Part shown: piece by piece, positions 28,356 to 46,295 of the stretch
Layout of the letters: each line of letters starts with the position of its first letter
Numbering within the stretch: position 1 is the first letter of the stretch
DNA from: Thioalkalivibrio sp. AKL19
Lineage (GTDB): Bacteria > Pseudomonadota > Gammaproteobacteria > Ectothiorhodospirales > Ectothiorhodospiraceae
Length of the DNA stretch: 64,000 nt
Assembly: GCF_000420165.1 (NCBI RefSeq)
Contig: NZ_ATUK01000013.1
Coordinates: 62,001-126,000 of the forward strand
Reading direction: 5' to 3'
Position numbers and translations under genes: made by a program
Notes under the pieces: model-generated
Databases searched by the model: none
The model's input: the letters and a program-made list of their open reading frames with translations, nothing else
Told to the model about the DNA's origin: nothing

Positions 28356-28360
28356 CGGGC

Positions 28361-29140
28361 TCAATCCATCGTGAACGGCCGGGTCAACTCCAGCCGTTGC
28401 CGTGGGGCGGTGGCCAGGGGCAGGGCATCGCCCGTGCACGACTCGACCTTCTTGCGCAGGCGACTCATCAATACATCGATGCGGTGGAAGCGGAACTGGG
28501 ATGGGTTATCGCTCAGTACGGTGGCGAGATCGAGCCGCGAGACCTTGCCGCCACCGTGGACGAGACACTCCAGGAAGGCGAATTCGTTGGGGGTCAGATC
28601 CACACACTGGCCATTCGGTGAGTACAAGCAACGTCCTTCCCGGAGTATGCGCCAGGTGGGTTCGGGCCCACGGAGGCCGGCGTCCGACTGGCCGCTGCTG
28701 GCCGCCAGCCGTCTGGACAAGGCTTCGACGTGGGCGGCCAGTTCCCGCAGGTCGACGGGTTTGGTCAGGTAGACATCGGCGCCCGCCTCAAGCCCTGCCA
28801 GGCGGTCATTCAGCTGTGAGCGCGCACTCACGATGATGATGCCGATACCGGTTTCCATGACGTGGCGCGCCACACTCAAGCCGTCTTCCTCGGGCAGACC
28901 GATGTCCAGCACCACCACATCCACCGGTTGGGCGACCAACTGGCGGTAGAAGCCCGCCGCGCTTTCTTCCGTCCATACGGTGCAGCCCTGCATGGCCAGG
29001 TACTCCGCCATGCTGGCGCTCTGATCCACGTCGTCTTCGACAATGGCGATACGGATGGCGCTGGGTTCGCTGGGATTGAGGGCGTCTTGCATGATCCGAC
29101 TGAACGCCTGGTCGGTTACAGATGGGAGGCCTGCGGTCAT
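28361..29140 (-). CDS. OmpR-type response regulator
   Basis: A 259-residue regulator. The receiver domain has the acidic pocket IAIVEDDVDQ (E35-D37), the phosphoacceptor D79 in VVVLDIGLPEEDGL, the switch Ser in IIIVSARSQ and the conserved Lys in VYLTKPVDLRELAAH. The C-terminal winged helix (about residues 165-259) contains DLTPNEFAFLECLVHGGGKV and IDVLMSRLRKKVE, as in OmpR/PhoB transcription factors. An ATG at 29092 is a possible alternative start. It is the first gene of the two-component unit and is divergent from the giant surface protein, with 192 bp between them that could hold its binding sites. Confidence 0.9.
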   Translation of the reverse strand: MTAGLPSVTDQAFSRIMQDALNPSEPSAIRIAIVEDDVDQSASMAEYLAMQGCTVWTEESAAGFYRQLVAQPVDVVVLDIGLPEEDGLSVARHVMETGIGIIIVSARSQLNDRLAGLEAGADVYLTKPVDLRELAAHVEALSRRLAASSGQSDAGLRGPEPTWRILREGRCLYSPNGQCVDLTPNEFAFLECLVHGGGKVSRLDLATVLSDNPSQFRFHRIDVLMSRLRKKVESCTGDALPLATAPRQRLELTRPFTMD

Positions 29141-29332
29141 GAGACACCACAGTGTGGCCGTTTAGCTGGAGGCCAAAGAGTACACCTTTCTGCCGCTTGG
29201 CCAAATGTTCAGGCGTTGCTTCCGGATCCGTGATGAGAGGAATGGTGAGAGTCCGTGAGTGGACGGGCAGGGCCGCGACGGTTCCAATGTGACGAAGTTC
29301 AAAAAAACCGTGACAGCACGGGAGAATTTGCC

Positions 29333-32300
29333 ATGTCCGCCAGTCCCCGCCGTTCCCTGAATGCCCTGCCGCAGGTTCTGGGCCTTGGGCTGAAGCATTC
29401 GCCCCTGGTCCTTGGCGCCGTCATGGCGTTGGTGGCGGGAGCGGTGCAGGCGGACGGGACCTGTGACCAGGACGGCAATACCTACACCTGCGAATTCACG
29501 GACACGGGCGCGCATGCGCTCAATCTCTCCGAGTATCTGGAAGACGATGAGCACACCATCAGCGAGATCGAGTATCTCGCTGTTGGTGGCGGTGGTGGTG
29601 GTGGCGGTGGCAACGGCAATGCCGGTGGTGGTGGCGGTGCCGGCGGCTTCGTCGAAGGCACCATGGCGGTCGGACCGACCGACACCTTGAACCTTTACGT
29701 GGGCAGCGGCGGCAGCCGCGGCAGCGGCAGCCCGGATAACCAAACCGACTCCTCGGCCGGGGGCGATGGCAGTGCAAGCTGGATCGAATCCAGTGTCGAA
29801 AGGATCGAGGCCGTCGGCGGCGGTGGTGGCGCACGAGGCTTTCCCAGAAGCAGCTATACCGGCCGTTATGGTGGCTCCGGTGGGGGTGGCACCCGCTATG
29901 GCTCGGGAGGTTCCAGCGCCGGTGAGCAGGGCCACAGCGGTGGCCGTGGTGGGCGCACTACGGGCGGTGCCGGCGCTGGTGGTGGCGGTGGTGCCGGTGG
30001 TGCCGGTAGTTCCGGCAGCAACCAGCACGGCGGCAATGGTGGCGCAGGCAGGGAGTCCGAGATTTTTGAAGGTACCTACGCCGGTGGTGGCGGTGGCGGT
30101 AACTACAACAAGGCCCGTCGCGGCAGCGGTGGCCGATGGGGTACTTGGCCGAGTACCGAAGGCGGAGGCACTGGCGGCCACGGCGATAACGATTGGTCAG
30201 GACAGAACGCCACCACCAATACCGGAAGTGGCGGTGGCGGCGGTGGTGGCCGCACCAGTTTCTGGGGCGTCAGCCAAGGTACCGACGGTGGTGACGGCGG
30301 CTCCGGCGTGGTGAAGGTCCGCTTCGAGGTCGTTGATACGGCGGATACCCGGACCACCACCATCGAGGAGAATGGCCAGACTTTCGTGGTCCACCAGTTC
30401 CTCAATCCGGAGATGGCGCACGAGTTCGTGGTGCCCGAGGGCGTCACCGAGGTCGAGTACCTGGTGCTTGGCGGCGGTGGTGCGGCAGGTAGCGCTCCGG
30501 CTGGCGACGCGAACTCCAAAGGCACCGGTGGTGGCGGTGCCGGTGGTTTCCTTACGGGGAGCAAGGCCGTACAGCCTGGTGAGAGCTACACGATTGCCGT
30601 TGGTGCCGGTGGCTCGGTGGATGATTCAGTGCTTGCAGAAAGAAGCGACCTGGTGGGCCAGTCCGGGCAGGCGTCCGTCTTTGGTGTGATCGAGGCCATG
30701 GGCGGTGGCGGTGGTGCCGATTGGAGCGCCAATAATGGTCAAACAGGTGGCTCTGGCGGCGGTGGTGCCGGGCGTGATGGTACCAGCCAGGGCGGTTCTG
30801 GTGAGCCGGGGCAGGGCTTTGGTGGCGGTGATGTAACCACTGCCACAGGTGGAGGTGAGGCCGCCGGTGGTGGTGGCGGCGGTGCCGGTGGGCCTGGTAT
30901 CCGTGGCTCTATCAATGACAGTGGTGGTGGTGATGGTGGCCAGGGCCTGCTCTCCACTATCACTGGCGAGGCTCGCTGGTACGCTGGTGGCGGCGGTGGC
31001 GGTGCTACCGCACGACTCACCGATGGAAAGGCCCCGGACGGCGGGCTTGGTGGCCTGGGCGGCGGTGGTGCCGGCCGTGGTGACGCGGAGCACGGCCAGG
31101 ATGGTGAGCCGGGCGTACCCAATACCGGCGGCGGTGGCGGTGGTATCGGGCGTGAGGCAAGCAGCGGCGACTACACCAAAGGCGGTGCAGGCGGCTCCGG
31201 CATCGTGGTGGTGCGCTATGCACTGCCGGAGACGGTCCCCGAACGTCCCAACCAGGGCACGGTGAGCCTGCCCGAGTTGCCGCGCATCGAGGGCGGCGAG
31301 ACCGTCCATGTGCCGGTCACCCTCGAAGGCTTCGATGAGATGGCAGGCGACAAACTGCTCGCCTACGTCCGCGTTCCCGAGGGGGGCGGTACGGTGAGCA
31401 TCACCGGCACGACCGGGCTGACGCGGGAGCACGGTTACGACAGCTTCACCGGCGAGCGCACCATCGGCTTCAAAGGCAGCCGTGAGGCGGTGACCACGGC
31501 GCTGAAAGAGCACCTGGAGTGGACCGCGCCGCTCAACCGCCAGGACGTGGTGCTGGAGGTGAGCGTCACCGAGGCGTCCGACGGCGTCTTCTTCAACCCG
31601 GACAACGGCCACTACTACAAACCGGTGGAGTCCAGTGACAAGAACTGGACCGATGCTCGGGATGCAGCCGCCGGACAGGAGTTGTTCGGCATGACCGGCT
31701 ACCTGGCCACCATTACCAGCCAGGAAGAGAATGACTTCATCGCCGAGCGCGTGGACGCCGAGGATCTCTGGATCGGTGCCAGCGACCACCGAGCCGCCAT
31801 CGAGCAGGCCTGTGGCTCAAACGTCTATACCACGCAGGGGGATGATTTTGACCCCGAGGCCGGTGATCAGGCCGAGGGTCGCTGGTACTGGGTCACCGGG
31901 CCCGAGGCGTGCACCCAGTTCTGGGCGGGGGATGAGGAAACCGGCCACACCGTGGCGGGGCGCTTCGCCAATTGGCCGGACACGGAGCCCAATAACGATC
32001 ATGGCGGCGAGCACTACGCCGCGACCAAGTGGACGCATTCTGAACATAGCCAGGGCCCTGAGTACTGGTACGATTTCGTACTTGGACGAGAAGACGTTAA
32101 CAACTACCTGATCGAGTTCGGCGGCCTGCCGGGTGAGGCCAGCGAGGCCCACTTCGGCAACGGCAGCACCACCCTGCGCTCCACCAACGGCGTGACGGTG
32201 GATTCGCTCACCGCTGCGGCTGGTGGTGCTGAGCAGTCTGTCGGCATCGGCTTGCCGACAGCGGTTGAAGAGGCAACGGCGGATCTCAAGGTCGGCATTA

Positions 32301-35300
32301 GTATTGCGGCGGATGGCGGCACCCTTACGGTTACTACGACTGCTGGTCTGACACAAACCGAGGGAGGCAGCTTTACTGCGCAGCAGGAGATCGCCTTCCA
32401 CGGCACGGCGGATGCCGTACGCACGGCGCTTGAAAATGTCGAATGGACCCCCGGCGGCGATGTCGGTCGCTACGACTTCGAGCTCACCATTGAGGAACAC
32501 GATGAGCCCAGCGCCTTCCTTGCCCAAGGGATCGCGACGCTGGCCGTCGCTGCCGTGCCGGGCGTACCGCAGGAGGTAACGGCGGAGCCGGGCAACGCCC
32601 AGGCCACGGTGCGCTGGACGGCGGCCGATGATGGCGCCAGCCCCATCAGCCACTACAGCGTTACGGCCACCAACGGTGGCGATACGCATACCTGTCAGAC
32701 CGCGAACGGCCAGGAGACCAGCTGCACTGTCACCGGGCTGAGCAACGGTACCGAATACACCGTGACAGTGACGGCCACCAATGCCAGTGGCACCGGGGCC
32801 GAATCCCATTCGGTGACGATCACGCCTGTCTCTAACGTCACCGTGAGCGCCCCGTCGGGTGCCACCGAAGTGGTCAATGACGACGGTAGCGTCACCACCA
32901 GCTACACCAACCTGAACGGCGACACCGTGCGGGTGACCCAGGGCGCCGACAACAGCGCCTCCGGGGCCATCACCCTGGATGGCAGCAATGGCCAGACCAG
33001 CACGGTGCAGTTCGACGGTGGCGAGACCGATAGCACCATCAACCCCGATGGCAGTATCTCCAGCGTCAACACCACCAATGGGGTCACCACCCGTACACGG
33101 GTCCATCCCGACGGGCGCATCAGTTACTGCCAGGGCGTCGATTGCAGCCTGGACGACGAACTGCCCCCCGGCTCCACCCTGCGCGTGGACGAGGGCAGTG
33201 CGCTGATCGTGGTCGAGGAGGGGCAGTACCCCGACGCCTCGGCCGATGCCGACGGCAGCCTGAACGTCTGCTACGCCCACGACGACTTCAACAGCGGCGT
33301 GCTCACTGGTTGGAAGATCCTCGCCAGCCAGAACTACACCCCGCAGGTCGTGCGCATCGGCGGTGATCCGAACAACCACCGCCTGCGCCTCACCGATGTC
33401 GGCGGCAACCGCGCCACCGGCATCACCAAGGACGTGCCGATCCCCTCCACCGGCCGGGTGGAGCTGGACTTCGTCGCCCATATCTACGGCGGCAGCGGTG
33501 CCGATGGCCTGGCCGTGGTGCTCTCCGACTGGAATGAAGCACACCCCTCCGTGGGGGCACCGGGCGGCTCCCTGGGCTATGCCCAGCGCTCCGGTGGCAA
33601 CGGTTTTGAGGACGGCTGGTTGGGGATCGGTATCGATTCCTGGGGCAACTTCGCCAACAGTAACGAAGGGCGCATTGGCGGCCCCGGCTTCCGCCGCAAC
33701 GCCGTCTCCCTGCGCGGGTCCGCGCCGGACTACCGCTACCTGACCGGCACCCCGGCCAACCTGCAGCCCAAGCTCGACGGCAGCTACAACGGCCACCGCT
33801 ATCGGGTGCTCATCGACGCCACCGATTCGGTGGAGGGCGTGATCCGCGTCACCGTGCAGCGCGCCACCAAGCCGGATAGCGACGAGTACGAGACCCTGGT
33901 CGACGAGGTCAACGTGCTCGCCGATGAGTTCAATCAGGGGACACTGCCCGAGCAGTTCCGGCTGTCGTTGACCGCCTCCACCGGCGGAGCGCACAACTAC
34001 CACGAGCTGAGTTCACTGCGCGTGGCCGCCAGCACCTGTGAGGCCGTGGACCCCCCGAGCATCACCACCGAGGCCGGTGCCGAGCCCTTCGAATGGACCC
34101 AAGGGGATGACAGCCTGGTAGCAACCATCGATTACGACGGCGAGGGTGAACTCTTCGTCTCCGGCCCCGATGCGGAGCGCTTCGAGCTGCGCAACGACAA
34201 CGAGCTGCACTTCCGCGAGGGCGAGCCCGAAGAGTCGGGGACCTACGAGGTGGAGGTCGGCATCCAGGACGATCGCGGCAACCGCGACTCGGAGACCTAT
34301 CAGGTCGATGTGGACCTTCAGGAGGCCAACGAGACCCCGAATGCGCCACGGAATCTGGAGGGCTTTGCCGGTGTCGAGCGTGCGGCCCTGCGTTGGGACC
34401 TCCCCGACAATGCGGACGATGTCGACCTGGCCGATTTCACTGTCTACGGCAAGAAGGGTTCTGACGCCGAGGTCGAGTACCCGGTGATCCGCTCCTGGCA
34501 GCAATTCCTTACCGACGAAGACGACGAACGGACCCGGGCAACGGTTCTGGAGGAAGACGGGCCGTGGTGTCGGCTCGATGACGTCTACGAACCCCTCGGC
34601 TGCGTGGTCGAGGTTGACGGAGGCATGGCGGCCGAGGAGTACACCTTCCAGGTCACCGCCTCCAACGCCAATGGTATGGAGGGAGAACACTCCGAGTCCG
34701 TCACGGTGACCCCGGTTGTATTGGACGGCAATGGCACCAAGGCCGACCCGTGGCAGGTCACCGATGCGGAGGAATTCGGGCTCATTGGTACTGCGCTGGG
34801 TGGCGGCAGCGATGCCCACTACGCGCTGACCGGCGATATTGGCCTGAAAGATGTCGACTGGCAGCCCATCGGCAGTGCCGAGGAGCCGTTCACTGGCTCA
34901 TTGAAGAGCGCCGATGGCGAACAGGTGAATGTCAGCGACCTTGACGGTCAGCCGCTGTTCGATGTGATCGGCCCCGGCGCCGAGGTCTCGGACGTGAACA
35001 TCCAGAAAAGTGTCAACAGCGACGCCGGTGACTACGCCGGTCTGCTGGCCAACGCCATCGAGGGCAGCGAGGACGAGAAGGCCGTCATCCGCAATGTCAC
35101 CATCGACAACGACAGCTCCATCAGCGGTGGCAGCTTCGTCGGCGGCCTGGCGGGCACCATCGAGCACGCCACGATCGATGGCGTGACCATCGACGCCAAT
35201 GTCACCGGCAGCGGCAACTATGTCGGCGGCGTCGGCGGCACCATTGCCGACAGCGACATCAGCGGTGTCGGCGGCACCCCTGCCGACAACGGCATCGAGT

Positions 35301-38300
35301 ACTCCACCGTCAATGGCGATGTCGCGGGCCACGACTACGTGGGTGGTGTCGGTGGCCAGATCGACGGCAGCACTCTGACGAATGTCAAGGTCAATGGCGG
35401 GGTGCAGGGCGAAGGCAGCAACGTCGGCGGTGTCGGCGGCCAGATCAATCGCTCCGACAACGCCAACTGCGTGCTGGATACCATCCGCGTTGACGGCAAC
35501 GTCTCCGGTGGCAACAAGACTGGTGGTGTCGGTGGCGGCATTGACGGTTGTAAGGTCAGCGATGTCGAGGTCAATGGTGATGTCACCGGTGGCGACGAGA
35601 CCGGCGGCGTCGGTGGCGACATCAATGACAGTGAAATCGATAACGCCACCGTCAAGGGCAAGGTCAAGGGCAACAAGAAGACCGGCGGTATCGGTGGCAG
35701 CATCGACGAGAGCACCGTCAAGAACAGCGAGCTGACGGAAGAGGGCAGTGTCGAGGGTACCGAGGAGGTCGGCGGCATCGGTGGCGCCATCACCGACAGC
35801 ACCATCGAAGACAACACCGTCAATGGTGAGGTGACCGGTGACCAGCAGGTCGATGGTATCGGCGGCAGCGAGAGCGGCAGCACCACGCTGACGGGCAACA
35901 CCGACGGCGCCACGGTGGATGAAACCAACCTGGGTAGCGAGGCCAATCCTTACCTGATCACCGAATGGGGGCACCTGCACGCCATCCGCAACAACCCGGA
36001 TGCCCACTACCAGCTGGATGCCGATCTGGGTACAGCCTCTGCCGGCTACGGAGACTATGCCTCCGATGCCGCCCACGACGGCAAGGGCTGGCAGCCCATC
36101 CCCAACTTCACCGGACAGCTGGACGGCAATGACAAAACCATCACCGGTCTGCACATCGATCGGGCAGGCGAGTCCAATATCGGCCTCTTCGCCGAGCTGG
36201 GCACCGACGCCGTGGTCAAGGATCTGACCCTGGCCGATGTCGACATCGTCGGCGGCGACCAGACCGGCTCCCTGGCGGCCCGTTCCTGGGGCACCATCGA
36301 GGGTGTCCGCGCGACGGGTCGTGTGGAAGGTGATCTGCGCAATACAGGTGGGCTCATCGGTCTGGTTACCGGTGGATCCGTGGTCGATGCCTCTACCAAT
36401 GTGGCGGTGGTCAAGGAGAGCACCGCCCTTGGCAACAGCGGCGGCCTGTTCGGTGACCTCGTCCAGTCGGGTGATGCCATCATCGTAGAGAACGTCCACG
36501 CCCAAGGCGATGTCACCACCCAGAACGGCAACGCCGGCGGTCTCATCGGCCTGATCGAGGGCGAGGTCACCGTGCGCAATGCCTCCGCCTCCGGCACCGT
36601 CTCCGGTGTCAGCCACCAGGGCGGCCTGGTCGGCTACATCTGGAAGGGCGGGGTCGAGGCCTCCCTGGCCACCGGCAACGTCAGTGGTACCAGCCACCTG
36701 GGCGGCCTGGTCGGCGAGGTCTGGGACGGCAGCGTGGTGGATAGCTATGCCACCGGCGCGATCGGCGACGGCGGCAGCCAGACCGTCGGCGGCCTGATCG
36801 GCAGCCTCGGTGGCAGCAGCACGCTGAGCCGCAGCTACGCCAGCGGCTCGGTGCAGGGCAGCGCCCCTATCGGCGGCCTGCTGGGCAGCGAGGGCGGCAG
36901 CGTTACCGTTGAACACGCCTACTTCGACAGCACCGTCAACAGCAACGGCATGGGGGATGCGGGCTATGGCCGGACCTCGACCGAGCTGGCGACCCTGGCC
37001 ACCTTCAAGGACGATTGGGACATCGGGGTGTCGGGTGAGGTCGAACCGGGCTACCCGCGCCTGAGCTGGCAGGAGGCCGGCGCCGGTGGTCAGACCTGGG
37101 TGATCTACCCCTTTGCGGGCGGTGACGGTACGCCGGAGAGCCCCTATGAGATCGCCACCCCCGAACAATTGGCGTTGATCGGCGACGATCCGACCGCCCA
37201 CTACGTCCTGATGGGTGACATCGATCTGGACGGCGTCGACTGGCAGCCCATCGGCAGCGAGGCCGAGCCGTTCACCGGCTCACTGACCAGCAGCGACGAC
37301 GGGGTTGTCCGCAGCATCAAAGGTCTTGACGGCAAGCCGCTGTTCGACGCAATCGGACCCGGTGCCGAGGTGGCGGACCTGACTATCGAAGGCAGCGTCA
37401 ATGACGATGCCGATGGGGGCTCCGGCCTGCTCGCCAATCGTATCGCCGGCGAGGAGGGCAACCCGGCCCGTATCGACAACGTCACCATCGACGATGCAAG
37501 CCGCATCGATAGAGGTGATAACGACATCATCGGCGGCCTGGCTGGCACCATCGACCATGCCGAGCTGAACCACATCACCATGGATGGTGAGGTGAAGGGC
37601 CGTGACTACGTTGGTGGTATCGGTGGGCAGGTCAGCAACAGCACCATCAGCGATACCACCGTCACCGGCCACGTGGAGGGTCGGGATTACGTCGGCGGTA
37701 TCGGTGGTGAGCTTGACGGCAGCACCGTTACCGACACGACTGTTACGGGTGATGTCACCGGTAGCGGCGACCATGTCGGTGGCGTCGGCGGCGAGGTGAA
37801 CGACAGCAGCGTCGACAACGTCGCCATTGAAGGTAATGTCGAGGGCCAGGACTACGTCGGCGGTATCGGCGGTGAGGTCAACGACAGCAGCATCAGTGGC
37901 TCCACGGTGAGCGGCGATGTCGATGGGAATGACCACGTGGGCGGCGTAGGCGGCGTTATTGCTAACAGCGAGTTGGACGGCACTCACGTCGAGGGCGGCG
38001 TGACCGGGACGGGAGAAAACGTTGGCGATATTGCCGGTCAAATCGAAGGTGAGGTGCGTATCGACGATGAGGCGCCCGGCATCTACGACGAAGCGGGCAA
38101 TCTGCTGGACGATCAGAGCATCGCTACCGGTGAGCCGGTACGTTTCCGTGTGCCGTTTGGCGACGTCACGCCTTCCGGGACCGTGTCACGGGGTGAAGAT
38201 ACGCACGACCTCGGAACGGCCACCGGGCCGGTTCTGCTGACCGACCCCGATGGCGGTGCCACGATCCTGCGCGTGGATGACGAGAGCTACTACGTCTTCC

Positions 38301-40474
38301 AGGCAAGCCGTGGCGGACACTACACGCTTCAGTTCGAAGATGGGGCGTACACCTTTTCCATCGAGTTCGAGGTGCGCCCGCAGGTGGCCTTCAGCAGTAC
38401 GCGCCAGTTCGGCACCGACGGCGAGGAGGTCGAAATCCGGGCCGTGCTGGAAGGCACGCCAGGGCAGTATCCGGTGGTGGTTCCGTACACCCTCTCCGGG
38501 GTTTATCTCATCGGCGAGTCGGAGGGCCTGGAAACCGAAAATGGTGGGGCGGGGCTACTGACAGAGGGTGAGTTCAAGTTCGAAGACGGAGAGCACGAGC
38601 GGATTCGTCCCCTGAAGGTGACGCCGGATGCGACTACCGGGATCATCGGCATCACCCTCACTCAGGGCGACGGGCCCGAGCACGCCGTCCTGGGCGATCC
38701 GGCGGAGCACGTCATCGAGTTGCGCTCTGCACAGGAGATCCCGCTGTCGGTGCGGGTGACCATCGAGCAGGGCACTGGAGGCGCAGCCGAGGAAATCGCG
38801 GATGGCGTGGTTCAGGTCGGGGAGGGTGATGTCACCCTGTCGGTGACCCCGGGGGATGCCGGCACTTATTCCTACGACTGGAACGGGAGCGATCCGAATC
38901 TCGGTTTCAGTGGCAATGGTGGTCACACGATCATCATCACGGATGACGCTAATGGGCTGGAACAGTTGGCCGGGGACGGCCATGGCTTCCAGGTCACGGT
39001 CACCGATGGCGCGCGGCGTGGGGCGGCGCTGGGTCGCCTGCGCGTGGTCGAAACCATTCCGGATGAGTATCAGGAGGCCATTCGCGACCGGGACGAAGCC
39101 CATCGCCTGCCCATCTGTCCGGAGGGTACGTTCCGCCGGGTCGGCGCTGGCCACTGCGTGAGCAGTGATCGCGAGGTGATGCTCGCTACGCCGGAAGGCT
39201 ATAGCGTTCGCATGGGTCAGACCTCGGAGCGGGTTTCCTGGGACGCGGGTCGTTTCGGCACCGGCATTAACTCGGATGATCTGCACGACGGTGGCGGCAA
39301 TCTGGCCCTGAACCGCGATGATCCGGATTTCGAGCACCTGGGGTACCTGGTCGATTTCGAGGTCTTCGATCTGCAGCATCCGGGGCAATCGGTGCCCGTG
39401 GTGATCCCGTTGGCGGACGACGAGTCCATTCCGGCGGATGCCACGTGGCGCAAGTGGCACGGTGCTGATGGCTGGAAGGATTTTGTCCAGGACGACGCCA
39501 ATCGTCTGCATTCGGCGGCACGCAGCGGAGACGCGTGCCCCTGGCCAGGTTCCGACCGCTGGGAGGCGGGCCTGAACGAGGGCTACCACTGTGTACGGTT
39601 GATTCTCGAGGATGGGGGTCCCAATGACCTGAGCGGCAATGACCCGAACGGGGTGATTGCCGACCCGGGTACGTTGGCGGTGCCTGCGGGCGCCGGAGGC
39701 GATGAGGATGCCAAGCTGACCAGTGGGGGTGGCGGCGCCTTCGGTGGCTGGCTGATCGTGGGTCTCGCAGGCTTGCTACTGGCCGCTCGCGTGGGTCGTG
39801 GCCGGGGTGTCCGGCGGCGCCTGTCCCCGGGAGCGATCGGTGGAGCCGCACTGTTGGTCCCGGGTCTGCTACTGGTACCCATGACCGTCCAGGCCGGCGG
39901 TGGCTCGGACGACGAGGTCCACCCCTGGTACGTTGGGGGTCAACTCGGGTATGCGCGCACCGGCGGGGTCAGTTCAGCGAGCGTGACCGACGACATGGAA
40001 CGTGCGGGGATTGCGGGTAGCGCCCGGGTCAGTGACCGTACGCGTGGGGCGTGGCGGTTGTTCGGTGGGTACCACTTTACCGAGCATTTCGGACTGGAGG
40101 GTGGTTATACGGATCTGGGCGAGATCACCACGAGATTCCGGGACGTGGATGCCGGGCTCGAGGTGGATGACCTGGAGGGTATCCGGCCGACTTCGGGGCG
40201 GGGCCTGGAGCTGGTGGGAACGGCGCGCTGGGCGGTCCACGAGCGCATCGATGTGTTTGCCCGTGCGGGTGTCTGGCACTGGCAGGCCCGCTACAACCTG
40301 CGCGTAGGCAGCGAGCGGGAACGCCATACGGTGTACGGCACGTCGGGCGTGATCGGTGCCGGCGCGTCCTGGCACTGGAACGAGCGCTGGTCCTCCCGAC
40401 TGTCGGTGGATCGCTATCGCAGTGACGGATCGGATCACGACTTCTTCGGCATTGGTCTGGTCCGGCGCTACTGA
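29333..40474 (+). CDS. giant multidomain lectin/GLUG-repeat surface protein with GlyGly-CTERM fused to an OmpA-like barrel
   Basis: A 3713-residue exported protein. The order seen is: signal peptide 1-40 (ending AVQA); two glycine-rich domains (about 75-335 and 370-630); a C-type lectin domain (about 751-931, with NWPDTEPNN near 880) between two similar beta modules; Fn3 (about 1075-1170); an L-type lectin-like domain (about 1314-1571, GSGADGLAVVLSD); a second Fn3 (about 1667-1800); three GLUG-like blocks (about 1800-2903); and a choice-of-anchor-like domain ending NGVIADPGTLAVP (about 3435). Then come a GlyGly-CTERM (3464-3497), an internal signal-like segment and a beta-barrel ending in Tyr3713. 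ATG 29333 follows GGGAGA. The rhombosortase gene is 265 bp downstream. A surface adhesin role is inferred from domains; the barrel after a sorting tail is highly unusual. Confidence 0.9.
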   Translation: MSASPRRSLNALPQVLGLGLKHSPLVLGAVMALVAGAVQADGTCDQDGNTYTCEFTDTGAHALNLSEYLEDDEHTISEIEYLAVGGGGGGGGGNGNAGGGGGAGGFVEGTMAVGPTDTLNLYVGSGGSRGSGSPDNQTDSSAGGDGSASWIESSVERIEAVGGGGGARGFPRSSYTGRYGGSGGGGTRYGSGGSSAGEQGHSGGRGGRTTGGAGAGGGGGAGGAGSSGSNQHGGNGGAGRESEIFEGTYAGGGGGGNYNKARRGSGGRWGTWPSTEGGGTGGHGDNDWSGQNATTNTGSGGGGGGGRTSFWGVSQGTDGGDGGSGVVKVRFEVVDTADTRTTTIEENGQTFVVHQFLNPEMAHEFVVPEGVTEVEYLVLGGGGAAGSAPAGDANSKGTGGGGAGGFLTGSKAVQPGESYTIAVGAGGSVDDSVLAERSDLVGQSGQASVFGVIEAMGGGGGADWSANNGQTGGSGGGGAGRDGTSQGGSGEPGQGFGGGDVTTATGGGEAAGGGGGGAGGPGIRGSINDSGGGDGGQGLLSTITGEARWYAGGGGGGATARLTDGKAPDGGLGGLGGGGAGRGDAEHGQDGEPGVPNTGGGGGGIGREASSGDYTKGGAGGSGIVVVRYALPETVPERPNQGTVSLPELPRIEGGETVHVPVTLEGFDEMAGDKLLAYVRVPEGGGTVSITGTTGLTREHGYDSFTGERTIGFKGSREAVTTALKEHLEWTAPLNRQDVVLEVSVTEASDGVFFNPDNGHYYKPVESSDKNWTDARDAAAGQELFGMTGYLATITSQEENDFIAERVDAEDLWIGASDHRAAIEQACGSNVYTTQGDDFDPEAGDQAEGRWYWVTGPEACTQFWAGDEETGHTVAGRFANWPDTEPNNDHGGEHYAATKWTHSEHSQGPEYWYDFVLGREDVNNYLIEFGGLPGEASEAHFGNGSTTLRSTNGVTVDSLTAAAGGAEQSVGIGLPTAVEEATADLKVGISIAADGGTLTVTTTAGLTQTEGGSFTAQQEIAFHGTADAVRTALENVEWTPGGDVGRYDFELTIEEHDEPSAFLAQGIATLAVAAVPGVPQEVTAEPGNAQATVRWTAADDGASPISHYSVTATNGGDTHTCQTANGQETSCTVTGLSNGTEYTVTVTATNASGTGAESHSVTITPVSNVTVSAPSGATEVVNDDGSVTTSYTNLNGDTVRVTQGADNSASGAITLDGSNGQTSTVQFDGGETDSTINPDGSISSVNTTNGVTTRTRVHPDGRISYCQGVDCSLDDELPPGSTLRVDEGSALIVVEEGQYPDASADADGSLNVCYAHDDFNSGVLTGWKILASQNYTPQVVRIGGDPNNHRLRLTDVGGNRATGITKDVPIPSTGRVELDFVAHIYGGSGADGLAVVLSDWNEAHPSVGAPGGSLGYAQRSGGNGFEDGWLGIGIDSWGNFANSNEGRIGGPGFRRNAVSLRGSAPDYRYLTGTPANLQPKLDGSYNGHRYRVLIDATDSVEGVIRVTVQRATKPDSDEYETLVDEVNVLADEFNQGTLPEQFRLSLTASTGGAHNYHELSSLRVAASTCEAVDPPSITTEAGAEPFEWTQGDDSLVATIDYDGEGELFVSGPDAERFELRNDNELHFREGEPEESGTYEVEVGIQDDRGNRDSETYQVDVDLQEANETPNAPRNLEGFAGVERAALRWDLPDNADDVDLADFTVYGKKGSDAEVEYPVIRSWQQFLTDEDDERTRATVLEEDGPWCRLDDVYEPLGCVVEVDGGMAAEEYTFQVTASNANGMEGEHSESVTVTPVVLDGNGTKADPWQVTDAEEFGLIGTALGGGSDAHYALTGDIGLKDVDWQPIGSAEEPFTGSLKSADGEQVNVSDLDGQPLFDVIGPGAEVSDVNIQKSVNSDAGDYAGLLANAIEGSEDEKAVIRNVTIDNDSSISGGSFVGGLAGTIEHATIDGVTIDANVTGSGNYVGGVGGTIADSDISGVGGTPADNGIEYSTVNGDVAGHDYVGGVGGQIDGSTLTNVKVNGGVQGEGSNVGGVGGQINRSDNANCVLDTIRVDGNVSGGNKTGGVGGGIDGCKVSDVEVNGDVTGGDETGGVGGDINDSEIDNATVKGKVKGNKKTGGIGGSIDESTVKNSELTEEGSVEGTEEVGGIGGAITDSTIEDNTVNGEVTGDQQVDGIGGSESGSTTLTGNTDGATVDETNLGSEANPYLITEWGHLHAIRNNPDAHYQLDADLGTASAGYGDYASDAAHDGKGWQPIPNFTGQLDGNDKTITGLHIDRAGESNIGLFAELGTDAVVKDLTLADVDIVGGDQTGSLAARSWGTIEGVRATGRVEGDLRNTGGLIGLVTGGSVVDASTNVAVVKESTALGNSGGLFGDLVQSGDAIIVENVHAQGDVTTQNGNAGGLIGLIEGEVTVRNASASGTVSGVSHQGGLVGYIWKGGVEASLATGNVSGTSHLGGLVGEVWDGSVVDSYATGAIGDGGSQTVGGLIGSLGGSSTLSRSYASGSVQGSAPIGGLLGSEGGSVTVEHAYFDSTVNSNGMGDAGYGRTSTELATLATFKDDWDIGVSGEVEPGYPRLSWQEAGAGGQTWVIYPFAGGDGTPESPYEIATPEQLALIGDDPTAHYVLMGDIDLDGVDWQPIGSEAEPFTGSLTSSDDGVVRSIKGLDGKPLFDAIGPGAEVADLTIEGSVNDDADGGSGLLANRIAGEEGNPARIDNVTIDDASRIDRGDNDIIGGLAGTIDHAELNHITMDGEVKGRDYVGGIGGQVSNSTISDTTVTGHVEGRDYVGGIGGELDGSTVTDTTVTGDVTGSGDHVGGVGGEVNDSSVDNVAIEGNVEGQDYVGGIGGEVNDSSISGSTVSGDVDGNDHVGGVGGVIANSELDGTHVEGGVTGTGENVGDIAGQIEGEVRIDDEAPGIYDEAGNLLDDQSIATGEPVRFRVPFGDVTPSGTVSRGEDTHDLGTATGPVLLTDPDGGATILRVDDESYYVFQASRGGHYTLQFEDGAYTFSIEFEVRPQVAFSSTRQFGTDGEEVEIRAVLEGTPGQYPVVVPYTLSGVYLIGESEGLETENGGAGLLTEGEFKFEDGEHERIRPLKVTPDATTGIIGITLTQGDGPEHAVLGDPAEHVIELRSAQEIPLSVRVTIEQGTGGAAEEIADGVVQVGEGDVTLSVTPGDAGTYSYDWNGSDPNLGFSGNGGHTIIITDDANGLEQLAGDGHGFQVTVTDGARRGAALGRLRVVETIPDEYQEAIRDRDEAHRLPICPEGTFRRVGAGHCVSSDREVMLATPEGYSVRMGQTSERVSWDAGRFGTGINSDDLHDGGGNLALNRDDPDFEHLGYLVDFEVFDLQHPGQSVPVVIPLADDESIPADATWRKWHGADGWKDFVQDDANRLHSAARSGDACPWPGSDRWEAGLNEGYHCVRLILEDGGPNDLSGNDPNGVIADPGTLAVPAGAGGDEDAKLTSGGGGAFGGWLIVGLAGLLLAARVGRGRGVRRRLSPGAIGGAALLVPGLLLVPMTVQAGGGSDDEVHPWYVGGQLGYARTGGVSSASVTDDMERAGIAGSARVSDRTRGAWRLFGGYHFTEHFGLEGGYTDLGEITTRFRDVDAGLEVDDLEGIRPTSGRGLELVGTARWAVHERIDVFARAGVWHWQARYNLRVGSERERHTVYGTSGVIGAGASWHWNERWSSRLSVDRYRSDGSDHDFFGIGLVRRY
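29575..31215 (+). repeat. two glycine-rich coding domains with GGY-codon runs
   Basis: Within the giant gene two stretches (about 29575-30325 and 30450-31215) each start with an IEYL/VEYL-V-GGGG motif and end with a V-V-R-hydrophobic strand (KVRFEVV and VVVRYAL), so they are duplicated modules. They consist largely of GGT/GGC codons with polyglycine runs of up to nine. Such triplet runs can expand or contract without breaking the frame. They also create long spurious open frames on the other strand. Confidence 0.8.
35134..38045 (+). repeat. GLUG-like 20-25 residue repeats in the giant gene
   Basis: Tandem units with the pattern V-x-G-x(3-5)-VGG(V/I)GG-x-I-x-x-S-x(4)-V occur about eight times at 35134-35900 and about six times at 37590-38045. 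A more divergent block lies between them (about 36240-36910). The first and third blocks are preceded by the same leader (DVDWQPIGS and GPGAEV-containing segments), showing duplication of a larger module. GLUG repeats usually build an elongated beta-helix. Confidence 0.75.
39722..39823 (+). other. GlyGly-CTERM sorting signal inside the giant gene
   Basis: Residues 3464-3497: a small-residue start SGGGGAFGGW, a hydrophobic helix LIVGLAGLLLAA and a basic cluster RVGRGRGVRRR. This is the tripartite GlyGly-CTERM pattern, normally the extreme C terminus of substrates cut by rhombosortase. Here 216 more residues follow in frame. Confidence 0.8.
39791..40474 (+). other. internal signal-peptide-like segment and OmpA-like beta-barrel
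   Basis: After the basic cluster comes a second hydrophobic segment (AIGGAALLVPGLLLVPMTVQA, split by prolines) with an AxA-like site TVQA at residue 3521. About 190 residues of alternating amphipathic strands follow: WYVGGQLGYARTGG, AWRLFGGYHFTEHFGLEGGY, and a C terminus FFGIGLVRRY whose last residue is aromatic, as outer-membrane barrels require. GTG 39791 could be an internal start giving a normal precursor (basic start, hydrophobic core, AxA). Whether the barrel is made as part of the giant protein, by cleavage or by internal initiation is not decided by the sequence. Confidence 0.7.
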
Positions 40475-40544: not shown

Positions 40545-40739
40545 CCGCGTGGGGCTCCATGTCTTTCGAGACCGGCGTGGGGTGTGGCGTCCAGACCGAT
40601 CGTCATGCTGCTCGCCCCTTACTGAACGCTTCGGGGTGCAACGCGGGACCGGGATGCATTGGGCGCCGTTGCCGTCCCGCCGCGACCCCGGGGCGGTCGT
40701 AACCGGTCCGGGCGGAACGGGTTCAGAGGGTTCGAGTTT

Positions 40740-41351
40740 GTGACGCTGAAACGGTCTCTCCGCTGGCAGTTGTTCCCCTTCCTGGTTGCGCTACCGGCCC
40801 TGCTGATTGCTCTGTCGGGCGAGATGGTCGGCGCCGTGATGCAGTACGAGCGGCCGGCGGTGATCAACGGTGAGGTGTGGCGGTTGGTCACGGGGCACTG
40901 GGTGCATCTGGGTTGGCGACACCTGGCCCTGAATCTGGCGGGGCTGTTTCTCGTGTGGCATCTCTTCGGACGGATGCTGCCCTTGGCCGGGTGGCTTGCC
41001 GTGCTGTTGGTGATCGCCTTGAGCCAGTCCGCGGCCCTGATGGTCTTCCATCCCGAAGTTCTCTGGTATGTCGGGCTTTCCGGACTGCTGCACGGATTGC
41101 TGGCGGCCGGGGCACTCGCGGCGCTTCGCCACAGCCCCCTGATCGGCGCGGGTGCATTGCTGCTGTTACTGGCCAAGTTGGCGCTGGAGGCCCTGCAACC
41201 AGGTGTCGGGGTCGCGGGGGCGAGCGACTGGCTGGGAGGCCCGGTTGTCGTGGAATCCCACCGCTATGGAGCGCTTGCCGGGCTGCTGATCGGCGCACCG
41301 GCCGTCTGGTGCACGGCGCGTCAGGCGGCCCGCCGTGCCGGAGAAGCCTGA
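40740..41351 (+). CDS. rrtA: rhombosortase (rhomboid-family intramembrane protease)
   Basis: A 203-residue polytopic membrane protein of the rhomboid superfamily. It has the rhombosortase pattern GEVWRLVTGHWVHLGWRHL (residues 44-62), the nucleophile S114 in YVGLSGLLHG and the catalytic His174 in VESHRYGALAG. Rhombosortases co-occur with, and process, GlyGly-CTERM proteins, and this gene directly follows one. GTG 40740 was chosen because AGAGGG lies just upstream and the product then starts shortly before the first helix; the frame is open 27 codons further, but that part is low-complexity Arg/Pro-rich. It is the only rhomboid gene in the window. Confidence 0.9.
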   Translation: MTLKRSLRWQLFPFLVALPALLIALSGEMVGAVMQYERPAVINGEVWRLVTGHWVHLGWRHLALNLAGLFLVWHLFGRMLPLAGWLAVLLVIALSQSAALMVFHPEVLWYVGLSGLLHGLLAAGALAALRHSPLIGAGALLLLLAKLALEALQPGVGVAGASDWLGGPVVVESHRYGALAGLLIGAPAVWCTARQAARRAGEA

Positions 41352-41614
41352 GGAGGCGCGTGCTGGTTCGGGTGGTTGCGCCGGTACATGGCGCCGCGCT
41401 GGTTCGTTCGCCCGTCCCAATCGTATGCCAGGTGCCTGGGCGCAGCCAGAGTTCTGCGGTTCCCGGTCCACGTGGCGGGGTCACTGGAGAGGGGGGAGGG
41501 GAACGCGTATCATCCCGCTTTCCCGTCCGGGCACGCGTGGGTACGGCTGAGCGGTGTCCGGGCCCCCGCTGAACCCTTGCGCCCATCTTGCCCGCAGCCG
41601 GGAGCCGCCTTCGC

Positions 41615-42376
41615 ATGTCCTGCAATACCCGTCCATCCGCCGATCCCGGTGCCGCGTCCCGGACAGACTTCTCGCCGGACGAGGTCGCCGCGGTTTATCG
41701 CGCGATCAACGAGCGCCGGGACATGCGGCATTTTCGCCCGGATCCGGTGGACGCCGAGATCCTGCGGCGGCTGCTCGAGGCGGCGCATCGCGCGCCGAGC
41801 GTGGGCTATATGCAGCCCTGGCGTTTCCTGCGCATTACCGACCCGGCGGTGCGCGAGGCGCTCCACGCCCATGCGGCGGACGAACAGACCCGCACCGCGG
41901 AGGCCTGTGGCGAGCGCGCGGCGGAGGTGCATCGCCTGAAGCTGGAGGGCATCCGCGAGGCGGGCGAGCTGCTGGTCGTGGCCCTGACCGATGGCCGCGA
42001 GCGCTACGTGCTCGGCCGGCGGACGCTCCCCGAGATGGACCTCTGTTCCGCCGCCTGTGCGATCCAGAACCTGTGGCTGGCCGCCCGCGCCGAGGGCCTG
42101 GGCATGGGCTGGGTCTCCCTGTTCGATCCGGACTGGCTGGCCGATCGGCTGGACATGCCCGAAGGCGGGTACCCGATCGCGGTGCTGTGCCTGGGGCATG
42201 TGGAGCGCTTCTATGACCGGCCGATGCTGGAGACGGCGGGCTGGGATACCCGGCGCCCCCTGGAAGACCTGGTCTTCCAGGATCGCTGGGGCGCGCCGTG
42301 CGAGCTGGCCGAGTCCCCGGATGCGCGGGAATCCGTCACGGGTCCGGATGGGGCATCCGGGCGCGGCCCGGCATGA
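41615..42376 (+). CDS. bluB: 5,6-dimethylbenzimidazole synthase BluB
   Basis: BluB is a flavin-destroying nitroreductase-fold enzyme that converts reduced FMN with oxygen into 5,6-dimethylbenzimidazole, the lower ligand of cobalamin. The 253-residue product has INERRDMRHFRPDPV near the N terminus (FMN phosphate binding), AAHRAPSVGYMQPWRFL and the late EGLGMGWVSLFDP, as in the family. A ~25-residue Gly/Pro-rich C-terminal tail looks unconserved. ATG 41615 is preferred over a TTG at 41588. It begins the late cobalamin operon, its stop overlapping the cbiB start; aerobic ligand synthesis is implied. Confidence 0.93.
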   Translation: MSCNTRPSADPGAASRTDFSPDEVAAVYRAINERRDMRHFRPDPVDAEILRRLLEAAHRAPSVGYMQPWRFLRITDPAVREALHAHAADEQTRTAEACGERAAEVHRLKLEGIREAGELLVVALTDGRERYVLGRRTLPEMDLCSAACAIQNLWLAARAEGLGMGWVSLFDPDWLADRLDMPEGGYPIAVLCLGHVERFYDRPMLETAGWDTRRPLEDLVFQDRWGAPCELAESPDARESVTGPDGASGRGPA

Positions 42377-43275
42377 GCACCTTTCTGATCCTGATCGGCG
42401 CCCTGATCCTGGACCGACTGTTTGGCGACCCACGGCGGTTCCATCCGCTGGCCGGATTCGGCCGCCTGGCCGCCTGGGCCGAATCCCGCTGGCATGCGCC
42501 CAGTCGTGTACGCGGAGCGCTCCTTCTCGCGGCGCTGGTCCTGCCCTGGGTGGTGCTGGCCGCACTGGGCACCTCGCTGGCCTGGGGCTGGCTTCTGACG
42601 CTGGCGATCCTGACGCTGGCGATTGGCTGGCGCAGCCTGGGCGAGCATGCGGAGGTGGTGGCCGAGGCCCTGGAAAAGGATGACCTGTCTGGCGCGCGCA
42701 CCGGTGTCGGCATGCTGGTCAGCCGCGACACGGCGGCCCTGGACGAACGCGGGGTGAGTGGCGCGACCATCGAGTCGGTGCTGGAGAACGGCAACGACGC
42801 GCTGTTCGCCACGATCTTCTGGTTCCTGGTGGCCGGTGCGCCGGGCGTGGTGGCCTATCGCATGGTGAACACGCTGGACGCGATGTGGGGCTACCGCAAT
42901 GACCGGTTTCGCTCGTTTGGCTGGGCCGCCGCGCGCCTGGACGATGCCATGAACCTGATCCCGGCCCGCCTGACGGCACTGGGCTATGCCCTGGCCGGGC
43001 GCGGCCGGGACGCGCTGCAGTGCTGGCGCGAGCAGGCCGCCGGCTGGAAGAGCCCGAATGCGGGGCCGGTGATGGCCGCGGGGGCGGGTGCGCTGGGCGT
43101 GGTCCTGGGGGGGGCGGCACCCTATGGCGGGCAGCGCGAGTGGCGACCCCGCCTGGGGATGGGCCGCATGCCCGACGCGGCAGGCATTCGCCAGGCGGTT
43201 GCGCTGCTGGATCGTGCGCTGGCCATCTGGATGGCCTTCATTGTGGCCGGGGTGATTGTCGTTGTCCTGTTCTGA
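42373..43275 (+). CDS. cbiB: adenosylcobinamide-phosphate synthase CbiB
   Basis: CbiB (CobD in the Pseudomonas naming) is an inner-membrane enzyme that attaches aminopropanol phosphate to adenosylcobyric acid. The 300-residue product starts with a hydrophobic helix followed by LDRLFGDPRRFHPLAGFGRL, the family signature. It also contains VSRDTAALDERGVSGATIES, NGNDALFATIFWFLVAG and RMVNTLDAMWGYRNDRF. Overlap with bluB is ATGA. Its aminopropanol-phosphate substrate would come from the product of the next gene. Confidence 0.94.
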   Translation: MSTFLILIGALILDRLFGDPRRFHPLAGFGRLAAWAESRWHAPSRVRGALLLAALVLPWVVLAALGTSLAWGWLLTLAILTLAIGWRSLGEHAEVVAEALEKDDLSGARTGVGMLVSRDTAALDERGVSGATIESVLENGNDALFATIFWFLVAGAPGVVAYRMVNTLDAMWGYRNDRFRSFGWAAARLDDAMNLIPARLTALGYALAGRGRDALQCWREQAAGWKSPNAGPVMAAGAGALGVVLGGAAPYGGQREWRPRLGMGRMPDAAGIRQAVALLDRALAIWMAFIVAGVIVVVLF

Positions 43276-43285
43276 GGCCCAATCG

Positions 43286-44293
43286 ATGCAGACGCCGGAG
43301 CCGAAGGCGTTGATCCAGGTGCACGGGGGTGGTATCCGCCAGGCGGCCGTGCGCTACGGGATCCCCGAGGCCGACTGGCTGGATCTCTCCACGGGCATCA
43401 ACCCGCATGGCTACCCCGCGGGCGAGCTGCCGCCAGGGGCCTGGGCGCGCCTGCCGGAACCGGACGACGGCCTGGAGGCCGCAGCCGCCGCCTATTACGG
43501 GACCGGGGCGCTGTTGCCGGTGCCCGGTTCCCAGGCCGCGATCCAGCTGCTGCCCGCGCTACGGGAGGGCCCTTCGCGCGTGGGCATCCTCGAGCCCAGC
43601 TACAACGAACACGCCCGGGCCTGGCACGGGGCCGGGCATGACGTCGTCCCGCTGGATGGGGACTCGATCGAGGCCGCATTGCCCGGCCTGGACGTGCTGG
43701 TCCTGGTCAACCCGAACAATCCGACCGGGCAACGGTTCGACCGCGCGGACCTGCGGGCGTGGCATGCGGCCCTGGCCGTGCGTGGCGGCTGGCTGATCGT
43801 GGACGAGGCCTTCATGGACGTTACACCGGAGGAGAGCCTGGCGAAGGACGCGCCGCGCGAGGGGCTGGTGGTGCTGCGCTCGCTGGGCAAGTTCTTTGGC
43901 CTGGCCGGGGCGCGCGTGGGATTTGTCATCGCGGAGGACACGCTGCGCACGCGACTGGCCGCCCGGATGGGCCCGTGGGGTCTTGCCGGACCGTCCCGCT
44001 GGATCGCCACCCAGGCGCTGTCGGACCGGGCCTGGCAGGCCGAGACACGCACCATGCTCCAGGCACGTGGCCAGCGCCTGGCGGACTTGCTGCGCGACCA
44101 GGGGCTGGAACCCGCCGGCGGCACCGCGCTGTTTCAGTGGTGCCGCGAGGACGATCCCGCAGGCTGGCAGGATCACCTGGGCGCGCAGGGCATCCTCGTG
44201 CGGCGGTTTGATGAGCCGGGTAGCCTTCGCTTTGGCCTGCCGGGGCAGGAACACGAATGGAAGCGCCTGGAACAGGCACTGGGGGCGTCCTGA
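43286..44293 (+). CDS. cobD: L-threonine-O-3-phosphate decarboxylase CobD
   Basis: A PLP enzyme of the class I/II aminotransferase fold (335 residues) that decarboxylates threonine phosphate to (R)-1-amino-2-propanol phosphate for the cobalamin side arm. The N terminus [20 protein letters not shown] and [12 protein letters not shown] are typical of CobD/Cob[31 protein letters not shown] and the PLP lysine in [18 protein letters not shown] are visible. ATG 43286 lies 10 bp after the cbiB stop. Histidinol-phosphate aminotransferase is a homologous alternative, but the operon and the start motif favour CobD. Confidence 0.92.
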
Positions 44294-45777
44294 TGGGAAC
44301 GACGCTGATGGTGCAGGGCACGACCTCGGATGCCGGCAAGAGCGTGCTGGTGGCGGGGCTGGCGCGCGTGCTGCACCGGCGCGGGCTGTCGGTGGTGCCG
44401 TTCAAGCCGCAGAACATGGCGCTGAACAGCGCGGTCACTATGGATGGTGGCGAGATCGGACGCGCCCAGGCCCTGCAGGCGGCGGCCTGTGGCCTGGCCC
44501 CGCATACGGACATGAACCCGGTACTGCTCAAGCCCAGCTCGGACCAGGGGGCGCAGGTCATCATCCACGGCCGGCCGGCGGCGGAGCTGGATGCCCGGGC
44601 CTATCACGACTACAAGCCGGTGGCACGCGAGGCGGTGCTGGCCTCGCATGGCCGCCTGACCGCACAGTACGACCACGTCCTCGTGGAGGGCGCGGGATCG
44701 CCGGCGGAGATCAACCTGCGTGCCGGCGACATTGCCAACATGGGCTTTGCCGAGGCCGTGGACTGCCCGGTGATCCTGGTCGCGGACATCGACCGGGGCG
44801 GAGTTTTCGCGCATCTGGTGGGCACGCTGGCGCTTTTGAGCGAAACGGAGCGCGCGCGGGTGCGGGGCTTCGTGATCAACCGCTTTCGCGGCGATATCGG
44901 CCTGCTGCAATCCGGCCTGGACTGGCTGGAACAGGAAACCGGCAAGCCGGTGCTCGGCGTGATTCCGTACCTGCACGGGCTTTATCTGGATGCCGAGGAC
45001 GCCCTGCCGCGCGAGGCGATGCCCGAGAAGACTGCGGACGCGCTGAAGGTGGTCGTGCCGGCACTGCCGCGCATCTCCAACCATACGGATTTCGATCCGC
45101 TGCGGCTGCACCCGGCGGTGGATCTGCGCTTTGTCGGGCCGGGCGAGTCGTTGCAGCCCGCGGACCTGGTCATCCTGCCGGGCTCGAAGTCCGTGCGCGC
45201 CGATCTCGCCTGGCTGCGCGAGCAGGGCTGGGAAGAAGCGCTGCGGCAGCACGTGCGCTATGGCGGCAAGGTCCTGGGGATCTGCGGCGGATTCCAGATG
45301 CTGGGCCACGCCGTGCACGATCCCGATGGGGTGGAGGGCCAGCCGGGCTCCACCCCGGCGCTGGGCTGGCTGGATCTCGAGACCCGGCTCGCCCCGGAGA
45401 AGCACCTGGAGCGAGTGCGCGGAGACCGCGTGCTGGATCGAGAAGCCGGCGTAGAAGGTTACGAGATCCATGCGGGTGTGACGTCCGGGCCCGGCCTGGA
45501 GCGGCCGCTACTGCAGCTGGAACACGGCCCGGATGGCGCGCGTAGTACGGATGACGCGGTGGCCGGCACCTATGTCCACGGCGTGTTCGATACATCGGAC
45601 GCCGCCGAGGCCTTGCTGCAATGGGCGGGAATGCGTAGCGGGATGGAGAAAGGGGAAGACCTGGCAACGGCGCGGGAGCGCGGCCTGGAGCGCCTGGCCG
45701 ATTCTCTGGAAGAACACCTGGATATGAATTGCATACTGACCCTTCTGCAAGTCGAATCGACGGAGCCAGTCGCATGA
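44293..45777 (+). CDS. cobQ: cobyric acid synthase
   Basis: CobQ (CbiP) amidates four carboxylates of adenosylcobyrinic acid a,c-diamide using glutamine and ATP. The 494-residue product begins [20 protein letters not shown], a dethiobiotin-synthetase-like P-loop, and continues [20 protein letters not shown]. The C-terminal type I glutaminase has [18 protein letters not shown] with the Cys nucleophile, and [15 protein letters not shown] with the catalytic His. Its start overlaps the cobD stop and its stop overlaps cobU. It acts before CbiB in the pathway. Confidence 0.96.
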
Positions 45778-46295
45778 AGACCCTGGTACTGGGTGGCGTG
45801 CGCTCGGGCAAGAGCCGGCTGGCAGAACAACTGGCGGCGGCCAGCGGCCTGCCCGTGACCTACGTGGCGACGGCGCGCGCGGACGATGCCGAAATGGCGC
45901 GCCGGATCGAACGCCATCGCGCCGACCGGCCCGGAGACTGGGGCCTCGTCGAGGCGGGCACGGGCCTGGCCCGGGCGCTGGAGGAGGCCGCAGGACCGGA
46001 GCAGTGCCTGCTGGTGGACTGCCTGACCCTGTGGCTGACCCAGCTCCTGTGCACCGATGACGAGTGCCGGATCGAGCGTGAGCGCGAAGCCCTGATCGAA
46101 ACGGTTCCGCGCCTGCCGGGCACGCTGGTGTTCGTCTCCAACGAAACGGGCATGGGGATCACGCCCATGGACGCACTGTCACGTCGCTTCGCCGACGAGG
46201 CCGGCTGGCTCCACCAGCGCCTGGCCCCCGCGATGGACCGCGTCGTCCTCACCGTCGCCGGCCTCCCGCATGTGCTCAAGGGTGACCTTCTGTGA
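45774..46295 (+). CDS. cobU: adenosylcobinamide kinase / adenosylcobinamide-phosphate guanylyltransferase
   Basis: CobU phosphorylates adenosylcobinamide and transfers GMP to make AdoCbi-GDP, the activated partner for CobS. The 173-residue product shows the P-loop [20 protein letters not shown] at the N terminus, [20 protein letters not shown], then [15 protein letters not shown] with the guanylylated-His region. [13 protein letters not shown] and [20 protein letters not shown] complete the family pattern. ATG 45774 overlaps the cobQ stop. A REP pair separates it from cobT. Confidence 0.95.

Follow-up and report, generated by a model that had tools for sequence, protein, structure and literature searches.

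The GlyGly-CTERM/rhombosortase system combines an N-terminal signal peptide, a Gly-Gly (GG) motif, a hydrophobic helix and a basic cluster with a cognate rhombosortase gene, rrtA (PMC3237569; PMC6219818), and according to its 2011 definition, which is limited to C-termini, no other transmembrane segment lies between signal peptide and GlyGly tail (PMC3237569). For VesB from Vibrio cholerae, rhombosortase exposes the second Gly of the motif and a glycerophosphoethanolamine-containing moiety is then joined to it, prior to type II secretion (PMC6219818), while passages of PMC13393428 present GlyGly-CTERM as acting as an independent motif. In this study, we analysed a stretch of 64,000 nucleotides (the window) from Thioalkalivibrio sp. 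AKL19 (contig NZ_ATUK01000013.1, positions 62,001 to 126,000), in which a single plus-strand open reading frame (ORF, 29255–40474, likely start ATG 29333) encodes a giant Gly-rich surface protein with GLUG-like repeats, an internal GlyGly-CTERM, an internal signal peptide and an OmpA-type beta barrel. The parts of the known system are all found at this locus, but the sorting signal, defined as C-terminal, is internal here, with a second signal peptide and the barrel behind it. OmpA-type barrels (PF01389; OmpA, OmpX, Ail) share fold and sequence profile with the barrel of the window; they are independent genes, however, while this one is not and would be exported by a predicted internal signal peptide. 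Autotransporters (type V secretion) likewise hold passenger and outer-membrane barrel in one translation product. They pass the passenger through their own, larger barrel, whereas here a predicted inner-membrane hairpin separates the parts and the barrel has eight strands. A proteobacterial dedicated sortase system with the OmpA-like protein PdsO (NCBIfam TIGR03789) also links a sorted surface protein with an OmpA-like protein, using LPXTG/sortase and separate genes in contrast to GlyGly/rhombosortase at this locus.

The order of parts can be read directly from the frame, which contains no stop codon anywhere from the GlyGly-CTERM segment to the end of the barrel (all features are on the plus strand unless stated otherwise). 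The motif SGGGGA (39722–39739), the expected rhombosortase site, is followed by a first hydrophobic helix (39740–39790), a helix in the AlphaFold2 model too, which represents the predicted GlyGly-CTERM transmembrane segment and is expected to run from periplasm to cytoplasm, and by the basic loop RVGRGRGVRRRLSPG (39788–39832), predicted to be cytoplasmic, with six Arg and neither Asp nor Glu. Gly/Ser-rich motif, hydrophobic helix and basic cluster are thereby all present within 39722–39823, although not at the extreme C-terminus. An initial annotation of this DNA had claimed 216 open residues past the GlyGly-CTERM, comprising a hydrophobic segment ending in TVQA and an outer-membrane barrel ending in Tyr, and we indeed count 216 codons after the basic cluster, with both elements seen in frame and Pfam and AlphaFold2 in agreement. 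The second hydrophobic segment (39833–39895), likewise a helix in the AlphaFold2 model, is predicted to be an internal signal peptide ending in T-V-Q-A; it carries the traits of a signal peptidase I substrate, namely RRR in the n-region, a hydrophobic core and V-Q-A before the barrel, and cleavage is expected after 39895.

The barrel itself (39896–40471, last residue Tyr) matches the Pfam families OmpA_membrane (PF01389, E 1.3e-15) and OMP_b-brl (E 1.6e-10). The AlphaFold2 model, computed from an alignment of 30 fused relatives, places an OmpA-type beta barrel after two helices, at a mean predicted local distance difference test (pLDDT) value of 82.8, with most of the barrel above 90 and the linkers below 50. 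OmpA provides the best matches of the model among solved structures, e.g. 9fzc (E 6.4e-11, template modelling (TM) score on the target 0.77), and sequence-profile comparison also puts OmpA nearest. Eight strands, an OmpA profile and an aromatic C-terminus characterise the domain as OmpA-type, while its identity to the nearest relatives does not exceed ~44%, and the tail of the window as a direct query against genome contigs gave no match. Two further family assignments were rejected on score: TIGR04219 (OMP_w_GlyGly), an NCBIfam family of outer-membrane barrels with a short name that hints at genomes containing GlyGly-CTERM, matches only 2 of the 30 barrels (best E 0.009), and for PdsO the fused relative L143 reached 41 bits, far under the cut-off of 152.

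The next gene downstream, left unmentioned in the initial annotation, is rrtA (40659–41351, probable start GTG 40740), which displays the motifs GLSGLLHG (Ser) and ESHRYGA (His) and matches Pfam Rhomboid and TIGR03902 (E 8.5e-41, 139.5 bits versus a cut-off of 84). Across the genome of the window, a GG-tail profile of 19 rows, the window's own tail among them, has the internal segment as its sole match (E 7.5e-5), with the next hit at E 5.0 in a frame of 128 residues. In single-target systems, target and rhombosortase usually lie side by side (Haft and Varghese 2011, PMC3237569), and the same pattern is observed here, with a rhombosortase present and adjacent and the genome otherwise devoid of credible GG tails. 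GspD of the type II secretion system (T2SS) scores over cut-off in this genome too, as in all 21 genomes tested, this one included.

Barrel fusions, for which the initial annotation had proposed a search along with a comparison of close relatives, recur with the parts arranged identically and in a single frame at 60 or more loci of other species, spread over numerous families of the Gammaproteobacteria and 16 named genera (Moritella, Hahella, Cellvibrio, Oceanobacter, Parathalassolituus, Alteromonas, Teredinibacter, Marinibactrum, Shewanella, Vibrio, Pseudoalteromonas, Motilimonas, Marinimicrobium, Photobacterium, Colwellia and Rheinheimera). Among 369 gammaproteobacterial genomes, nine others contain fused frames (G173, G118, G353, G123, G176, G214, G212, G321, G208), and a profile search of the phylum adds G633, G587, G609, G722, G760 and G636. 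GTDB genome contigs, scanned with aligned choice-of-anchor U/GG/barrel proteins as query, yielded 80 loci, of which 50 are fused (48 with GG hairpin), 7 encode the barrel one gene further on and 23 lack it, numbers which are not frequencies since the query held the barrel and biases the counts toward fused forms. Many of the relatives are metagenome-assembled genomes; in a finished circular Pseudoalteromonas replicon, one public coding sequence of 8.6 kb runs through the barrel under the sole name 'Ig-like domain-containing protein'. In a barrel tree, fused forms group together (11 changes vs 34.8 after shuffling), unlike adjacent forms, which are scattered; because support is weak for most of the deep branches and the tree is poorly resolved, we make no claim on how often fusion occurred or in which direction. 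Relatives with two separate genes, which had been named beforehand as grounds to reject the arrangement, do exist, with a GlyGly-CTERM gene and a barrel gene immediately after it (L149, L151, L081, L089, L208 and others); many others keep the fusion, however, and the two-gene relatives therefore do not refute it. L081 had been labelled automatically as a direct fusion owing to a long out-of-phase frame overlapping the barrel, a label rejected upon reading of the sequence, which shows two genes. The initial annotation further knew of no described precedent. This holds for the open-access literature on rhombosortase with OmpA or beta-barrel, where titles, abstract openings and term counts reveal no such fusion (subscription journals lay outside the scope), and the terms OmpA, barrel and fusion are absent from PMC3237569; in genomes, on the other hand, the arrangement is common.

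At the junction of the fused frames, GG, basic loop and AxA are kept while the rest of the sequence diverges. In 61 hairpins, delimited by a simple hydropathy rule which placed L191 one helix too early, the loop holds on average 3.9 Lys/Arg versus 0.13 Asp/Glu, and its net charge is at least +2 in 60 of them; these numbers are descriptive, as some of the loci counted come in pairs from one genome or from near-identical species. Directly after helix 2, [AVSTGIL]xA is found in 61/61 hairpins compared to 57% of random windows of the same proteins, an enrichment for which we claim no p-value since the hairpin sequences are mutually related. In close pairs, the ratio of nonsynonymous to synonymous substitution (dN/dS) of the hairpin is, where computable, about 0.0–0.39 and hence well below 1, like that of the flanking domains.

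The fused layout is also linked to rhombosortase across genomes. All ten hairpin genomes of the class sample have rrtA over cut-off, compared to 126/369 overall (hypergeometric p 1.7e-5), and so do 44/49 genomes behind the named loci. Of the five genomes without rrtA over cut-off, G834 and G836 hold anchor proteins lacking a GG tail and G837 an atypical tail; G832, with the two-gene form, reaches 79.6 bits, just under the cut-off of 84, and the fifth, G794, is taken up below. For the internal segments of G173 and G353, the curated model for GlyGly-CTERM (TIGR03501) exceeds its cut-off, and at E<=10 it has matches in 13 of the 30 sequences comprising hairpin and barrel. Of the two rrtA genes in G353, one neighbours a conventional GlyGly-CTERM gene and the other neighbours the fusion.

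We propose, with a probability of roughly 0.8, that the ORF encodes a polyprotein with two cleavage sites, the GlyGly motif for rhombosortase and AxA for signal peptidase I, and that its mature products are a surface protein with a lipid tail and an outer-membrane barrel, made in a ratio of about 1:1. The N-terminal signal peptide would send the giant repeat protein through Sec, until the GlyGly-CTERM helix is halted in the inner membrane, its Arg cluster facing the cytoplasm. The hairpin topology follows from the established positive-inside rule: with helix 1 running out-to-in and the basic loop inside, helix 2 is expected to run in-to-out like a signal peptide, leaving AxA periplasmic and just before the barrel. 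The second hydrophobic segment would thus re-insert as an internal signal peptide and start barrel export. The rhombosortase from the adjacent gene would cut the GG motif, and the large product would receive a lipid tail prior to export by the T2SS, while cleavage by signal peptidase I after AxA would free the barrel for outer-membrane assembly. One translation event would consequently give one surface protein and one barrel, with a two-helix hairpin as the discarded piece. Compared to the alternatives discussed below, dual cleavage, already envisaged in the initial annotation, is favoured on sequence grounds by the conserved GG, basic loop and AxA, the adjacent rrtA with its sole detectable target, purifying selection and recurrence across families.

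Several observations weigh against this proposal. TIGR03501 gives no match over cut-off for the GG segment of the window, and the profile which does detect it contains that very tail. In the parts of the cited literature that describe tests of rhombosortase, GlyGly-CTERM stood at a C-terminus. G794, a metagenome-assembled genome, features a hairpin fusion yet has no rrtA over cut-off. In L171, L222 and L082 the repeats are fused directly to the barrel without a GG hairpin, so that the hairpin is not always kept. Finally, the closest orthologue, which covers the C-terminal part and occurs in only one of 47 genomes of the order (G032, locus L013, 55% identical), ends ...SRGGGGASGPLLLLGLLGLGLLARTRRRLPVAR-stop right after the GlyGly-CTERM, with rrtA next and no barrel. 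Since L013 ends in GlyGly-CTERM with rrtA next to it, the same orthologue indicates that the segment of the window is read correctly as GlyGly-CTERM, and relative to it the barrel constitutes either an addition in the window or a loss in L013.

The alternative that survives best, albeit at low probability, is that of two proteins from one mRNA, in which the barrel is started separately inside the hairpin at GTG 39791 (39791–39793) and the open frame is incidental or only couples translation. This codon, put forward as an option in the initial annotation, is in frame and would yield a usable signal peptide, MGRGRGVRRRLSPGA...VQA, and overlapping two-gene relatives such as L149 and L081 do exist. 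However, no Shine-Dalgarno (SD)-like sequence lies at normal spacing upstream, and a start in the loop is not conserved in relatives: of the 61 loops, 21 contain an ATG, 7 a start codon of whatever kind accompanied by an SD-like site, and only 3 an ATG so accompanied. An incidental frame should moreover often gain stops, whereas this one is kept open over many families with the hairpin under purifying selection, and we consider the separate start disfavoured. Somewhat less probable still is an uncleaved fusion, whose barrel would stay covalently joined and anchor the large protein in the outer membrane. The direct fusions L171, L222 and L082 lend themselves to this view, all the more as one of their three genomes (G147, L082) has no rrtA over cut-off, those of L171 and L222 having one; in the hairpin form, by contrast, the barrel would be held at the wrong membrane by the two helices in the inner membrane, rrtA is nearly always present, and GG, basic loop and AxA are conserved amid divergence elsewhere. 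A sequencing or assembly error that lost a stop between two genes, for which the stop in L013 and the two-gene relatives could be invoked, is very improbable because dozens of related bacteria share the same open frame in independent genomes, some of them complete.

If dual cleavage is correct, the locus represents a natural case in which two distinct membrane proteases act on one bacterial chain and give it two separate fates at the outer membrane, and rhombosortase would be widened from a trimmer of C-terminal tails to an internal processing enzyme. In genera such as Vibrio, Shewanella and Pseudoalteromonas, a class of rhombosortase substrates would then escape searches restricted to C-termini. 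The gene fusion also suggests that rhombosortase-dependent surface display, a step with incompletely known components, may have its missing partner in an outer-membrane barrel. Surface protein and barrel occur in fusion, in adjacent genes or directly joined without hairpin, as would be expected from a lasting partnership; that the released barrel is a dedicated outer-membrane partner of the co-translated surface protein, e.g. as a receptor or docking factor of the lipid-tailed product or as the site where it is retained, is a tentative idea which we hold to be somewhat doubtful. A third arrangement of the three parts is seen in L085 (G332), with a GlyGly-CTERM gene, rrtA and a convergent OmpA-like gene, the barrel of which is ~43% identical to that of the window. 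Some fused relatives share a further feature with OmpA-type proteins, an OmpA-like peptidoglycan-binding domain after the barrel, identified by profile matches in L143 (G633) and by eye in L083 (G208), and a barrel released from such fusions would, judging from this domain, bind the cell wall too.

Upstream of the junction, the ORF begins with a probable N-terminal Sec signal peptide (29333–29452, MSASPRRSLN...VAGAVQA/DG, with GGGAGAA ahead), judged by eye. Its giant Gly-rich repeat part contains fn3 and GLUG-like (Peptidase_M26_N) stretches, and the C-terminal region before the GG motif (38459–39721) is homologous to the L013 orthologue and distantly related to choice-of-anchor U proteins. 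Cobalamin genes follow rrtA (41588–46295, plus strand; BluB-like nitroreductase, CobD/CbiB, aminotransferase, CobQ and CobU), with no obvious link to the adhesin. On the other side, a 7TMR-DISM histidine kinase and a response regulator (26409–29140, minus strand) are encoded divergently just upstream of the giant ORF and are candidates for its regulator.

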